Assembly: GCA_007115995.1 (NCBI GenBank)
Contig: SKJI01000036.1
Coordinates: 1-32,119 of the forward strand
Reading direction: 5' to 3'
Source of the DNA: a candidate division SR1 bacterium
Lineage (GTDB): Bacteria > Patescibacteriota > Gracilibacteria > Absconditabacterales > Absconditicoccaceae
DNA length: 32,119 nucleotides
Translations under genes and position numbers: made by a program
Shown here: in pieces, positions 1,928 to 31,570 of the stretch
How the letters are laid out: each line of letters starts with the position of its first letter
Numbering within the stretch: the stretch's first letter is position 1
Notes under the pieces: model-generated
Told to the model about the DNA's origin: nothing
The model's database searches: none
What the model saw: the letters and a program-made list of their open reading frames with translations, nothing else

Positions 1928-3202
1928 ATGAACTGGTCTATAAAGATTATCAAAAAAATTTGACAATGAATATATCACGTGTTTTCTTTTTTCAATAGAC
2001 TGCTTGCATTATTGATGCAATGACTGATATATATTTATCAGATAATTTTTTCACCAAGTGTTTGATTACTTGGGCATATACTTTGAAGAAATGTTTGTTG
2101 TCATACCCCACATTGTAGTCAGTTTGGTTTAGAAGTATTTAAGAGATACTGATTTATTCGTTGATTTCACTATACTATGGAGAGAGTGAGTTCTTGTACA
2201 TGATGAACAAAAAAGGTATATGATCCTGCACATATTCGTCTTGTGTATTTTAGTTGATCACCAATTTGAGTTCCATTTCTTCATGCACTTGTAGCTGATG
2301 ATCGTTTTGAGTTGATTTGAGTGGTAACACAACCAGCTGTACCCTATGGAAGGTGAATGAATTATCGTGATAATATTATTGCTCAAGAGGTTTCTGCATA
2401 TAATAAAAAAACAAATCGTTCAATACCAGTATATACACCATCTTCGTTAAAAACTACTCATAAAAAATATTGAGATGATGCACAAAGTTGCATATCCTGT
2501 TTGCAAGCGTTACAACCTGACATTATACTTGTTGTCGCTTATTGAAAGATTCTACCCCGTCAAGTTTTGGATATACCTATATTTGGTACAATTAACGTTC
2601 ATTGATCTCTCCTTCCTAAATTTCGTTGAGCTTCACCCTTGCAGTCAGTTTTTCTCGATGATCATGATGCAGCCTGATTTACTGTTATGAAAATGTCAGA
2701 ATGATTAGATGAGTGAGCTATATTATCGTCTCATCCTCTTCCAATTCAGTTTGATCGAACCGTTTTAACGTTGATCGAGCAACTCTCTTCCAAAGCTCCA
2801 AAGCAAACATTGGAGACAATATGGTCTTATTGTAAATGAAGAGTTGATCCAATCCCTCAGGATGATACAGAAGCTACATTCTGTTGAAAAATTGCTAAAG
2901 AAGAAGCAGAAATTGACTGATTTACTGACTCTTTGTCTGAAATATATAAAAAATATCAGGCATATGCTCTTTGGCCAAAAATTTATACTCATCTTTATAA
3001 TAAAATAGTTATTATTGAATCAATGATTCTTCATCAAGCAGTCTATTCAGCAACCCATCATTTACCATTATTTTTTCAAGAGAAATGATGATCAATAGTT
3101 CTTCATCAAGCAGTAAAATCACTGTATGTTAAACCTGCTTGAAAAAAATCAATGCACTGGGATGAGTTTATTAGATGATATGCAGATAAATCTAAAAAAT
3201 AA
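1928..3202 (+). CDS. fmt: YidD-methionyl-tRNA formyltransferase fusion
   Basis: A 424-residue protein. Residues 20-92 match YidD, the small membrane-associated factor that assists membrane protein insertion (FNRLLALLMQGLIYIYQ, FSPSVG, the Cys-rich CCHTPHCSQFG, and KRYGFIRGFHYTMERV). From about residue 100 to the end it is methionyl-tRNA formyltransferase, which formylates initiator Met-tRNA using 10-formyl-tetrahydrofolate. The active-site motif INVHGSLLPKFRGASPLQS supplies Asn223 and His225, and Asp261 lies in MSEGLDEG. A C-terminal OB-like domain follows (ATFCGKIAKEE, WPKIY). There is no stop between the parts and no Met between about residues 84 and 144, so the formyltransferase cannot start separately from an ATG. 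ATG 1928 directly follows the upstream stop. Fmt assignment is firm, YidD strong; I know of no described case of this fusion. Confidence 0.9.
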
Positions 3203-7638: not shown

Positions 7639-8409
7639 TTATTCATCATTGAGCGATTTAAGTTGATCTCTCAATTGTGCAGCATCTTCAAATCTCCATT
7701 CGCTAATGGCCTGATCAAGCTGTTTTTTGAGATCTTCAGCAATCATTGCTTTTTCTTTTTTAGTCATACGTTTGAGTCTTTTTACTTTTCACTTTGTCAG
7801 TGATCCAAACTCTTGTAAAGGTTCATCAGACTTTACAATTTTGAGTTCTTTGATATTTGATTGAGCTTGTGTTGGTTTTATTCCATGTTCTTTATTGAAT
7901 GTATCTTGTATTGTTCTTCTACGATATGTTTCTCGTAATGATGCAAGGATACTTCATGTAAATTTATCAGCATACAGTGCAACTTCACTGTTTGGATTTC
8001 TTGCTGCTCTTCAAATATTTTGTATTAATGCTGTTGTTGATCTAAGAAATCATTCTTTGTCAGCATCAAGTATGCCGATAAATCACACTTCTGGTAGATC
8101 AATACCTTCTCTGAGAAGATTGACTCATACAAGGACATCTACTTCTCAGCTTTTGAGTTTTTGAATAATTTCCCAGCGATCTATTGTATCAATTTCACTA
8201 TGCAGATAGAATGTTTTAAATCATTTAGAGAGCATGAAATTTGTAATTTCTTCTGAAGATCTTTTGGTCATCGCTAATATCAAAACTCTCAATCATTTAT
8301 CGATTGTTTCTTGCGTTTTGTAGAGTAAGTGATCTATAAATGATTTCGCTTCAATTGATGCTTGCATATCTTTTTGCAGATAATCATTGAGTGCTTTTTG
8401 TGTGTTCAT
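7639..8409 (-). CDS. Stand-alone C-terminal half of UvrB
   Basis: A 256-residue protein matching only the second half of UvrB (about 660 residues). Residues 30-75 carry RVLILAMTKRSSEEITNF and FYLHSEIDTIDR. Helicase motif V follows (DVLVGVNLLREGIDLPEV), then ILDADKEGFLRS and motif VI (QNIGRAARNPNSEVALYAD). The UVR motif closes the protein (DQAISEWRFEDAAQLRDQL). The Walker A domain and beta-hairpin that bind ATP and damaged DNA are missing, and no N-terminal half exists in this window. The frame is intact, so this is not simple decay. It begins 7 bases after the TPR lipoprotein stop. It may partner an N-terminal half encoded elsewhere, or supply the UVR/helicase-2 module on its own. Confidence 0.9.
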
Positions 8410-8416
8410 GATGTCT

Positions 8417-9118
8417 TTAATAATAAAGTCCTTGTATTTGATTGATTTTTTGTTTTGTTTGTAGATGATTAGGGTCATGGCGAAGGAGTTGTTGTAAATA
8501 TTCCAAAGCTTTATTGTTGTTTCAAAGTTCTTTGTATGTTTTTCATAAATAAAACAATGCATTGATTGATTCAGGCTCTTGCTCTAATCATGTATAGAGA
8601 TATGGTAATGCAGTTTCATAATCACCAATATCATAATGGGTAATCCCTTGGAAGATATAAGCATCCGTAAATGAAGGATCTATACTAATAACTCTATCGA
8701 AGAGATCTAGCGCTTGACGTCAATAAAGTATAAAACCTGCTGTTCATGCTATTTTTTCGTGATAGCTGAGATCACTCAGTACTGTTGCTTTATTATAAAG
8801 TATGAGTGGGTCATTGGGTGATATGTTGAGTGCAGCATCAAAATAACGAATTGCACGAGTGAGTTCTCATAACTCTGCAACTATAACTCACATATTGAGC
8901 AATGCTTGCAGATTTGAAGGGTCTTGGATTATAGCTTGTTCAAAATACTCTTGTGCTTGTAGAAGATTTCCTTGTTCATAAGCTGTAATTCATAATTCTG
9001 TGAGTGAAACGATATTATTGTCTTCTATTGTTTCTTGTTGGTTTGAGAGACATCAAGGTAGAAAAAAAAGAGTCAAAAAAATTATTATATATACCGCTCT
9101 GAGAACAAATCTATGCAT
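8417..9118 (-). CDS. TPR-repeat lipoprotein
   Basis: A 233-residue protein. A basic, hydrophobic leader (RFVLRAVYIIIFLTLFF) ends in the lipobox LPGC, so Cys should be lipidated and the protein tethered outside the membrane. The rest is tetratricopeptide repeats: AYEQGNLLQAQEYFEQAI, DPSNLQALLNMGVIVAELG, a third starting ISPNDPLILYNKATVL, then YIFQGITHYDIGDYETALP and LGKTYKELGNNNKALEYLQ. TPRs form superhelical scaffolds for protein contacts; the partner is unknown. The glycine of the lipobox is a TGA codon. It lies between lysS (28-base gap) and the half-UvrB gene. Confidence 0.9.
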
Positions 9119-27589: not shown

Positions 27590-27616
27590 ATGTACGTTTT
27601 ATTTTGTTTTGTATGG

Positions 27617-28894
27617 ATGTTTATGAATTACGGTATTTTTGGATCACAACGCTTGATGGTGTTTGTTGTGTGTATAATTGTGGCGCTTATGGTGTATGCT
27701 CCAGCAGTATGAGCAGAAACGACGACGGCGTTGCAGTGGTGACAGCGTCTTGGGTTGACGCAGTATGATGATCTGGAGTCATTTAGATGAGACGATATGA
27801 TTACCAGAGGAGAAATTGCTAAGTTTTTTTCTGTGCTTGCAGTACATCTCTGATCGTGACGTCTAGATACATGATCGTGTTCATTTACTGATCTTGCTTG
27901 ATATGATCAAGGTTTGATCCCGTATATTGCTGATGTATGTAGGAGTGGATTGATGCGTGGTTCTGGATGAAATTTTTTGCCAAATGATCCCATAACCTGA
28001 GCAGAAGCGATTACGGTCTTGATGAGAATAAACCATGGACAACTAGATGAAACCGTTTCTCCATGGTGGATATGGTATGCATATTTATGACTGTATGAGC
28101 ACGTTCTCGATGTTGCTGATATGTTTGCTTTGGAGAACACAGTGAGTAGATCGACGGTTTTGCAGCGAATGTATAGACTTGCACAACCAGTCACACTGAG
28201 TAGTTCTTCTGATCAAGAGATATTGCACGATACTCCTCAGGCAGATCGTTTTTCTGTGACGAGAGTGGTTGATGGCGATACGATTATTATTGACTATCAC
28301 GGTGTCGAAGAAAGAGTCAGATTGATAGGAATTAATACACCAGAGTCTGTGCATCCGAGTAGATGAGTCGAACACTTTGGACCAGAGGCAAGCCAATTTA
28401 CTAGAGAGCTTATCGAAGGAACAATCGTCCGTATCGAGTTCGATGAGCAACAAAGAGATATGTATTGAAGACTGCTTGCATACGTCTGGCTTGATGAGAT
28501 CATGCTCAATGCACGTTTACTTGAGGTATGACTTGCCGCCGTCTCAACTCGACCACCAAATGTCCGTTACCTCGAACGTTTTATCGAGGAAGAACGTCGT
28601 GCACAACTCGCATGAGTATGAATGCGAGCACGTGATGACCTGCCTGCTTCTGACGCTTCTCTTGCTAGCGCTTCCTCCTCTCCTCCATCATCACAATCAT
28701 CTGTTCAATCAGTCAATATCAATACTGCGTCTCTTGATGAGCTCCAACGTATTCAACATATCAACCTCGAAAGAGCTCAAGAAATCATCACACTCAGACC
28801 GTTTGGGTCTGTCGGTGAACTGGTTCGTGTGAGATGAATTTGAGATGCAAGAGTGAGAGATATTATCACGCAGTGAGTTGCGGTGGTCGAGTAA
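27617..28894 (+). CDS. Secreted SLH-thermonuclease-HhH protein
   Basis: A 425-residue protein with an N-terminal signal peptide (LMVFVVCIIVALMVYAPAVGA). Residues about 45-200 resemble S-layer homology repeats (MITRGEIAKFF, SFTDLAGYDQGLIPYIADVC, LMRGSGGNFLPNDPITGAEA). Residues about 220-345 are a staphylococcal-type nuclease: VTRVVDGDTIIID, RVRLIGINTPESVHPSRGVEHFG, and RDMYGRLLAYVWL supply the Asp, Arg and second Arg of the active site. A Ser/Pro linker precedes a ComEA-like helix-hairpin-helix module (VNINTASLDELQRIQHINLE, VRGIGDARVRDII). The protein is likely held at the cell wall and cuts DNA outside the cell. It could serve nucleotide uptake or DNA processing. It has no Shine-Dalgarno sequence. 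Confidence 0.92.
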
Positions 28895-29974: not shown

Positions 29975-31570
29975 TTAATTATCTTCAATATATTTCATAG
30001 AATTTTTTATATATTCTTTTAAATTTTTATCAATTACGTATATATATGTTCAAAGAATTCAACGTGAAAGTAATGTTTTATAAATATTAATAATATAGAA
30101 AAAAAGTTCATCTTTATTAATTCAGCGTTTTCAATTCCTATCATGATAATTTTCTGGTCTAATAATAATTTTTTGCCTAATATTATCATATCAAATTTCG
30201 TTTCAAATTATTACTCATACATAATTTAGATCATATCCTTGGACTGTGTGAATACATCATACTTCATTAATTGCATTATTAGAGTTAATCCGATCTCATC
30301 ATATAACACTATTCCAGCAAAAACTTTCTGATTCTATTTTAATATCTATTATATTTCAGCTTTTATCTCACTTTGACTTCCAAGGCCATGCATATCACGC
30401 AACCATTCTTGATAATTTATATTTTTCTTCGCACATTAAGATGTTATTCTTAAAATCTCAGATATTATCAAATATTTTAAATTTATATTTTCATAATTCA
30501 TATTTCTTATTATTTTTTCATATAGATAAATTAAATAGATCATCTATAAAATCCAAATATCATTCACCTTCTCTTAGTCTCATTTGACTTTGCAATGAAT
30601 ATTCTTTTGCTTTCATTCTTCTAAACATACTTGCATCAATATCTGCTGGAAGGATTGACTGTCATTCATCATAGAGAAAAATTTGAAATTTAGATCTATA
30701 GTTTATCCAATTTAGTTGATTTCACTCATCTCAAAGAGATAACTTTTTATTTATATTATCAAAGGCCTGAAAGTTAGTGATATTTTTTCTTCTTTTAAGC
30801 CTATGTGCTTCATCAACAATCAATATATCATAACGTTTTTTAACAACGTCATGAGGTCATAGTACCATTGATGATGATAAATTTTTAATTTTTGAAAAAA
30901 TTTTTTTTATAGTTTTTCTTAGTCATGTCATTGGTATTACAATTCATATTTCTAGATCTTTAGAAAATAGTTGTTCTTTTAAAAATTTAACTAGATATAC
31001 TCATAAAATAGTTTTTCAAGTTCAAGGTTTTCAATGTATCAAGAATTGATTTACGTTAGTACTATGTTTCATATTATATACTATATCGTTAACAATACTT
31101 TTTTGCTCAGAGGTTAATGACTTATATGGAGAAAATTTAAATAAGTCTGAATTTTTCAAATCAAATAGAGTATGTTTTACGATTTTATTATTTAAAAAAT
31201 AATCCCATATTAATTCGAATTTTGCTTTATAATTTTTTCTATTATAGTATTCATGATTTTTTAATCCACCATTTGAATTCAGTAATAAATTTGATCAATC
31301 GGCTGCTAAATACTGAATAAGATCAGATTCAATGTCTAATGTTGCAGATTTATTTGATTCTGCATCGGTTATCACATAAATTTGTTTTAATAATGATTTA
31401 TTTTTATCATTCATATGTTGCTTACACCTATTATACACATTAATTGACTCTCACACATATGCTTCTTTATTATTTTTAAGAAAATATACTACTGGTCGAT
31501 CTTTTCAATAACGATAGACTTCTATATTTTTTAATCAGTTTTGATTAAAATCAAATCTTTTGATATCCAT
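29975..31570 (-). CDS. GIY-YIG/DUF2075 superfamily 1 ATPase
   Basis: A 531-residue protein. Residues 20-95 are a GIY-YIG nuclease-like domain: VVYFLKNNKEAYVGESINVYNRCKQH, read around the Tyr29 and Tyr38-Val-Gly signature, with an acidic Glu at about 81. Residues about 150-531 are a DUF2075-type P-loop ATPase of the helicase group: Walker A HGKPGTGKT (179-187), Walker B YDILIVDEAHRL, a later IFLYDEGQSILP motif, QSQMRLREG, HTVQGYDLNYVGVIIG, and LLSRG near the C-terminus. Such proteins recur in bacterial defence regions and accessory islands. The three P-loop glycines after Pro are largely TGA, so the gene is native to or adapted to code 25. It shares an operon with the next gene (17-base gap). 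Confidence 0.9.

Follow-up and report, generated by a model that had tools for sequence, protein, structure and literature searches.

The Absconditabacteria (SR1), an order of tiny bacteria that probably depend on hosts, encode UvrB in two separate genes, an N-terminal half (N-half) and a C-terminal half (C-half), in almost all genomes sampled, although the protein is normally a single chain and close to universal in bacteria. The distribution of motifs and the predicted folds make it very likely that the two products form an obligate two-chain UvrB, in which the ATP site would arise on assembly only; both assembly and activity are inferred from sequence and structure models. The C-half described here lies in a window of 32,119 nucleotides (the whole stretch of DNA analysed), and its partner lies outside the window on another contig of the same genome. 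The features are as follows:

7639..8409, minus strand: UvrB C-half, 256 aa, second RecA-like domain and UVR motif (code 25, TGA=Gly; Pfam/TIGR00631)
8374..8394, minus strand: ALNDYLQ start peptide, residues 6-12, a proposed docking peptide
7852..8349, minus strand: domain 3, the second RecA-like helicase domain, residues 21-186 (profile and model)
8098..8121, minus strand: motif V, NLLREGID (21/21 C-halves)
7996..8022, minus strand: motif VI, QNIGRAARN (21/21 C-halves)
7648..7737, minus strand: UVR motif, residues 225-254 (Pfam UVR; 21/21 C-halves)
G000:C27:27482-28852, minus strand: UvrB N-half, 487 aa frame (UvrB profile 1-436; outside the window)

The window gene had been described in a first-pass annotation, made from the letters alone, as the C-terminal half of UvrB, and the profile comparison agrees. 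The gene aligns with positions 425-657 of the 658 in TIGR00631 (uvrb; E 1.2e-74) and has Pfam matches to Helicase_C, UvrB, and UVR, with nothing N-terminal of domain 3. Motifs V and VI and the UVR motif are retained as claimed, and so is motif IV, which that annotation did not list; we take TKRSSEE, NLLREGID, and QNIGRAARN to be motifs IV, V, and VI, respectively. The reported loss of the Walker A domain and the DNA-binding beta-hairpin is likewise borne out, as Walker A, the beta-hairpin, the UvrA-interaction domain, DESH, and SATP are all absent from the window C-half and present only in the partner N-half. The frame at 7639-8409 (minus strand) was called intact, and it is open for 256 residues plus stop only when its nine TGA codons are read as glycine under code 25; translation of the window with the standard code gives no long frame across this region. 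An upstream extension into the TPR gene region had also been raised. The frame is indeed open to an ATG at 8562 (307 aa), but the region above 8409 has no similarity to UvrB and shares its nucleotides with the TPR gene, which is read in a different frame. The start at 8409 is supported because the start peptide that follows it is common to relatives. The suggestion that the gene is packed in an operon stands in part: it starts 7 nt past the stop of the co-directional TPR gene, but the neighbors are not kept around the C-half in 20 relatives. Across 41 loci (20 C-halves, 20 N-halves, and the window), no gene family beyond the half itself recurs in more than three, which suggests that each half is retained for itself.

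The UvrB model, run against the own genome (50 contigs totaling 1.0 Mb; completeness, 94.5%), located the N-terminal fragment that the first-pass annotation had proposed to look for, on contig C27, and found no full-length uvrB on the 50 contigs. The N-half carries Walker A, the beta-hairpin, the UvrA-interaction domain, DESH, and SATP. Two weaker matches to the model belong to other helicases, by eye a DEAD-box protein and RecG. The halves score 499.3 and 229.2 bits against a family cut-off of 750.1 bits; since neither reaches it, we refer to the gene pair as a "split UvrB" and not as an ordinary member of the family. Contig C27 is 39.5 kb long and continues for about 10.7 kb beyond the N-half on its shorter side, and the 32.1-kb window contig leaves 7.6 kb between the C-half and one end. 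These distances exclude a contig-end artifact as the cause of the break. In the same genome, uvrA is found in pieces on two contigs (C20 and C10), and C50 carries uvrC as a frame of 553 aa. The earlier suggestion of a split UvrB thus holds, with a complementary N-half in the own genome, no full-length copy, and a two-piece pattern that extends across the order. Its other suggestion, a helper protein with a changed role, is disfavored because the genome has no intact UvrB to help.

The order was sampled with 49 genomes of one family and 22 genera. A profile search found no UvrB above the family cut-off in any of the 49, and recovered the N-half in 47, the C-half in 46, and both in 45; four of the 47 N-halves (G001, G003, G004, and G024) are partial or in pieces. 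A full-length uvrB accompanied by an absent or variable fragment in relatives, the pattern named earlier as speaking against a split, is therefore not what the order contains. Both halves are present in 25 of the 26 genomes with completeness of at least 90% and contamination of at most 5%. Among the exceptions, G002 (88% complete) has the C-half only, G059 (74%) the N-half only, and G066 (65%) neither, while in G013 (99% complete), which has the N-half, neither two profiles nor examination of the place where it would be expected revealed a C-half. Profiles derived from the halves did not recover the missing halves in these genomes. In G013, the gene that neighbors the C-half in a congener is present and adjoined by another frame (DnaK-like by eye), and the C-half has been lost, moved, or left unassembled. 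The uvrA profile matched in 49/49 genomes of the order, above the cut-off in 33 (some of the others are weak ABC-type matches), and uvrC matched in 46/49, a few of these being merely the UVR motif of the C-half. The single-contig genome G026 (97%) has both UvrB halves and uvrC, without a strong uvrA match.

This distribution is an order-wide split rather than decay. Incomplete uvrB genes do occur in other genomes of the class, mostly at contig ends with two contig-internal cases (G241 and G301), and they lend some substance to the idea of a pseudogene or assembly artifact, a broken uvrB of one genome. However, the frames of 20 N-halves and 21 C-halves, drawn from different genomes, are intact, and in the three single-contig genomes G005, G008, and G026 the halves lie 95.8, 240.4, and 504.7 kb apart. 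Relatives' halves share 55 to 68% identity with the own halves, and 70 columns of the C-half are invariant. An artifact is extremely improbable on these data and, for practical purposes, refuted by the order-wide conservation. A shorter distance, about 16 kb, separates the halves of G023 and G032, which belong to one genus. Programmed fusion or frameshifting was rejected because the halves occupy separate contigs or are widely spaced.

The anatomy of the halves was compared in a set of 20 N-halves and 21 C-halves, with at most one of each per genome. DESH, SATP, the hairpin, and RPTG are present in 20/20 N-halves, and the Walker A pattern is present in 19, the exception being L039 with GATATGKT. 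All 21 C-halves have motifs IV, V, and VI, the RRR run, and the UVR motif. The division is clean in both directions, with motif V in none of the 20 N-halves and TGKT in none of the 21 C-halves. The N-halves bear an extra segment before motif III, such that the spacing from xRP to SATP is 34 to 88 residues (median, 61), compared with exactly 16 in 93/93 single-chain UvrBs. They also have a tail of 23 to 68 residues after LLDP, with YPK in 20/20. A start peptide with the consensus NLxDFLQ, a pattern picked after viewing the sequences, is found in 19/21 C-halves against a mean of 0.75 and a maximum of 4 in shuffles.

Measured on a model of single-chain UvrBs, the C-halves start at about 429, and the majority of N-halves reach about 444. 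The similarity of the C-half heads exceeded all 40 shuffles in 20/20 usable rows (the mis-cut L058 row was left out), and the resemblance of the N-half tails to domain 3 is weak, with 11/20 exceeding all 40 shuffles and the rest equaled by 1 to 9 of the 40. The slight overlap of the two halves hints at, without proving, duplication followed by complementary truncation. In a phylogenetic tree, each of the two halves forms a single group with 100/100 support, which allows one origin and does not prove it. We regard one ancestral split as likely, perhaps by this duplication route. In the 19 genomes with both halves, mean pairwise identity is 0.60 for N and 0.64 for C, similar to the values of 0.63 (N) and 0.61 (C) that the same parts of 16 single-chain relatives in the class give. 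N and C identities are correlated (r = 0.73; 0/5000 permutations), as expected from shared descent, and the correlation is thus no evidence of contact.

The near meeting of the profile ends (C from about 429, most N to about 444) would also suit a joining of the halves after transcription or translation, by a trans-spliced RNA or a split intein, into an ordinary UvrB. Pfam scans of the own halves, however, found no intein (Hint) domain, and the N-half tails, at 23 to 68 residues, are shorter than an intein N-part, which has about 100 residues. Rfam models, introns included, gave no match in the window or around the N-half, and the C-half begins just 7 nt behind the preceding gene. Such joining is, on balance, highly improbable.

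AlphaFold2 models were built from alignments of the N-half of L080 (JAPLUU010000002.1) and the window C-half, with mean pLDDT values of 85.6 and 82.0, respectively. The N-half model superposes on UvrB residues 3-413 of 1t5l_A (Z 44.0; rmsd 2.0; 410 aligned) and the C-half model on residues 422-592 (Z 24.2; rmsd 1.9; 171 aligned). Taken together, the two models span everything from domain 1a to domain 3, and the hinge that separates the RecA-like domains is where they meet. The N-half segment before motif III is modeled in part as a long helix (residues 405-431), with confidence below 50 at its start and above 80 at its end. Confidence is also low in the N-half tail (roughly 50 to 70) and in the C-half start peptide (about 43). 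Such uncertainty in the tail and start peptide would be expected if a partner is needed, or if these elements are simply flexible.

Domains 1a and 3 of single-chain UvrB hold the ATP site between them. In the split version, one chain keeps Walker A and DESH and the other keeps the motif VI arginines, for which a two-chain enzyme is the simplest explanation. The N-half would supply domains 1a, 1b, and 2, with Walker A, DESH, SATP, the DNA-clamping beta-hairpin, and the UvrA-binding domain, and the C-half would supply the second RecA-like domain with motifs IV to VI and the UVR motif, the cut falling at the hinge that links one RecA-like domain to the other. The chains may join noncovalently through the ordinary contact of domain 1a with domain 3, and the N-half segment before motif III, the N-half tail, and the C-half start peptide are candidates for new contact elements. 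Only in the complex would Walker A of the N chain and the motif VI arginine of the C chain complete an ATP site, and the complex would then perform the standard UvrB work of being loaded by UvrA, verifying damage, and recruiting UvrC.

Is it possible that the two products do not work together? Each half could have left UvrB work, the C-half becoming one helper (e.g., a regulator that binds UvrC or DNA) and the N-half a second one, so that no joint enzyme exists, and the near-complete G013 with its lone N-half is consistent with this, as are the lineage-specific additions on both halves. This reading is improbable in our view, given that both sides retain motifs whose action requires the domain 1a/domain 3 interface, that both halves are kept in 45/49 genomes, and that the order has no other UvrB, yet uvrA and uvrC are widespread. 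Within the two-chain enzyme, the location of the UvrA-binding domain on the N-half and the UVR motif on the C-half permits a stepwise, switchable assembly but does not demonstrate it. A more speculative version, which we consider rather unlikely, is a conditional motor, in which the N-half, loaded by UvrA, is the first to clamp DNA and the ATPase turns on only after docking of the C-half, whose UVR motif may by then already hold UvrC. Docking would proceed by the new segment, tail, and start peptide, and verification and UvrC recruitment would become one licensed step.

The split version shares with single-chain UvrB (TIGR00631/NF003673; 1d9x, 1t5l, and 2d7d) the same motifs in the same order, the UvrA-interaction domain, the UVR motif, and the folds of the halves. 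Unlike single-chain UvrB, it consists of two chains from unlinked genes, with an extra segment, an N-half tail, and a C-half start peptide. A comparable cut is seen in 7egt, a database listing in which the Thermus UvrB N-terminal domain was crystallized with the UvrD C-terminal domain. There, UvrB is cut near residue 409-411 and the N part (about 410 residues) folds alone; the N-half model matches it with Z 43.7 and rmsd 2.1 over 408 aligned residues. Judged from its title, 7egt is a laboratory construct, in contrast to the natural split gene here.

Among the parallels found, the split genes of the Nanoarchaeota come nearest; they include a large helicase-related protein and reverse gyrase (passages of PMC3655853, including Table 1). 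They resemble the UvrB split in coming from a reduced, host-dependent lineage, in having one protein as two genes, and in including a helicase; they differ in being archaeal and in affecting other proteins, and a UvrB split between the RecA-like domains does not appear in those passages. No split UvrB was reported in the open-access literature searched; subscription journals fell mostly outside this search, so the split may nonetheless have been published. Words starting with "uvr" are absent from the main text of the Absconditabacteria/Gracilibacteria genome papers PMC8406219, PMC8080830, and PMC11452946. A natural, order-wide cut at the hinge offers a ready experiment on the cooperation of two RecA-like domains. 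It could also show whether assembly switches UvrB and in what order UvrA, UvrB, and UvrC meet. The split is a bacterial counterpart to gene splitting in the Nanoarchaeota, whose lineage is likewise reduced, and might serve as a marker for the order. Annotation requiring a full-length UvrB would call these genomes UvrB-less.

The class was searched in 353 genomes, with three candidates scored per genome. UvrB above the cut-off was found in 264 of the 304 class genomes outside the order and in none of the 49 within it. Re-examination of 41 genomes outside the order found UvrB above the cut-off in 26. The 15 without such a match are the cases given below, and a second family-wide split was therefore not found in the class. 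A partial uvrB stops at contig ends in G036, G092, G152, G211, G296, and G312, and uvrB pieces lie close to the first bases of a contig in G178, G218, and G338. G294, G306, and G352, which belong to these 15, lack a strong UvrB match, as does G039, all four being 96 to 99% complete genomes of the same class.

Among class members that do not belong to the order, the TGA-recoded genomes (f14, and G087 of f19) mostly have a single UvrB frame of about 590 to 760 aa. In f14 genomes (e.g., G118, G126, and G134), the profile match to this single frame is broken at about 402 and 554, and the sequences suggest insertions close to the same hinge. G043, G241, and G301, the remaining three of the 15, show other arrangements. 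In L025:1492-4218 (G043 contig 69), UvrB has an in-frame insert directly after motif III within an open frame of 1125 aa; the insert contains histidine phosphatase (His_Phos_1) and serine hydrolase (Ser_hydrolase) domains and is either a fusion or an artifact. In L170 (G241 contig 19:40000-44500), a stop interrupts UvrB with about 35 residues missing (profile 390-425), leaving frames of 415 and 226 aa side by side in this one genome. L183 (G301 contig 40) is a contig-internal, 290-aa UvrB remnant (profile 365-658) whose N part was not found, adjoined by a transposase-like frame (by eye).

Three other genes in the window have unusual domain combinations. A 424-aa frame at 1928-3202 (plus strand, code 25) appears by eye to be a fusion of a YidD-type membrane factor and methionyl-tRNA formyltransferase. 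At 29975-31570 (minus strand), a GIY-YIG domain (weak match) is followed in one protein by a Schlafen group 3 helicase domain, and at 27590-28894 (plus strand), one protein carries SLH, staphylococcal-nuclease-like, and helix-hairpin-helix domains.
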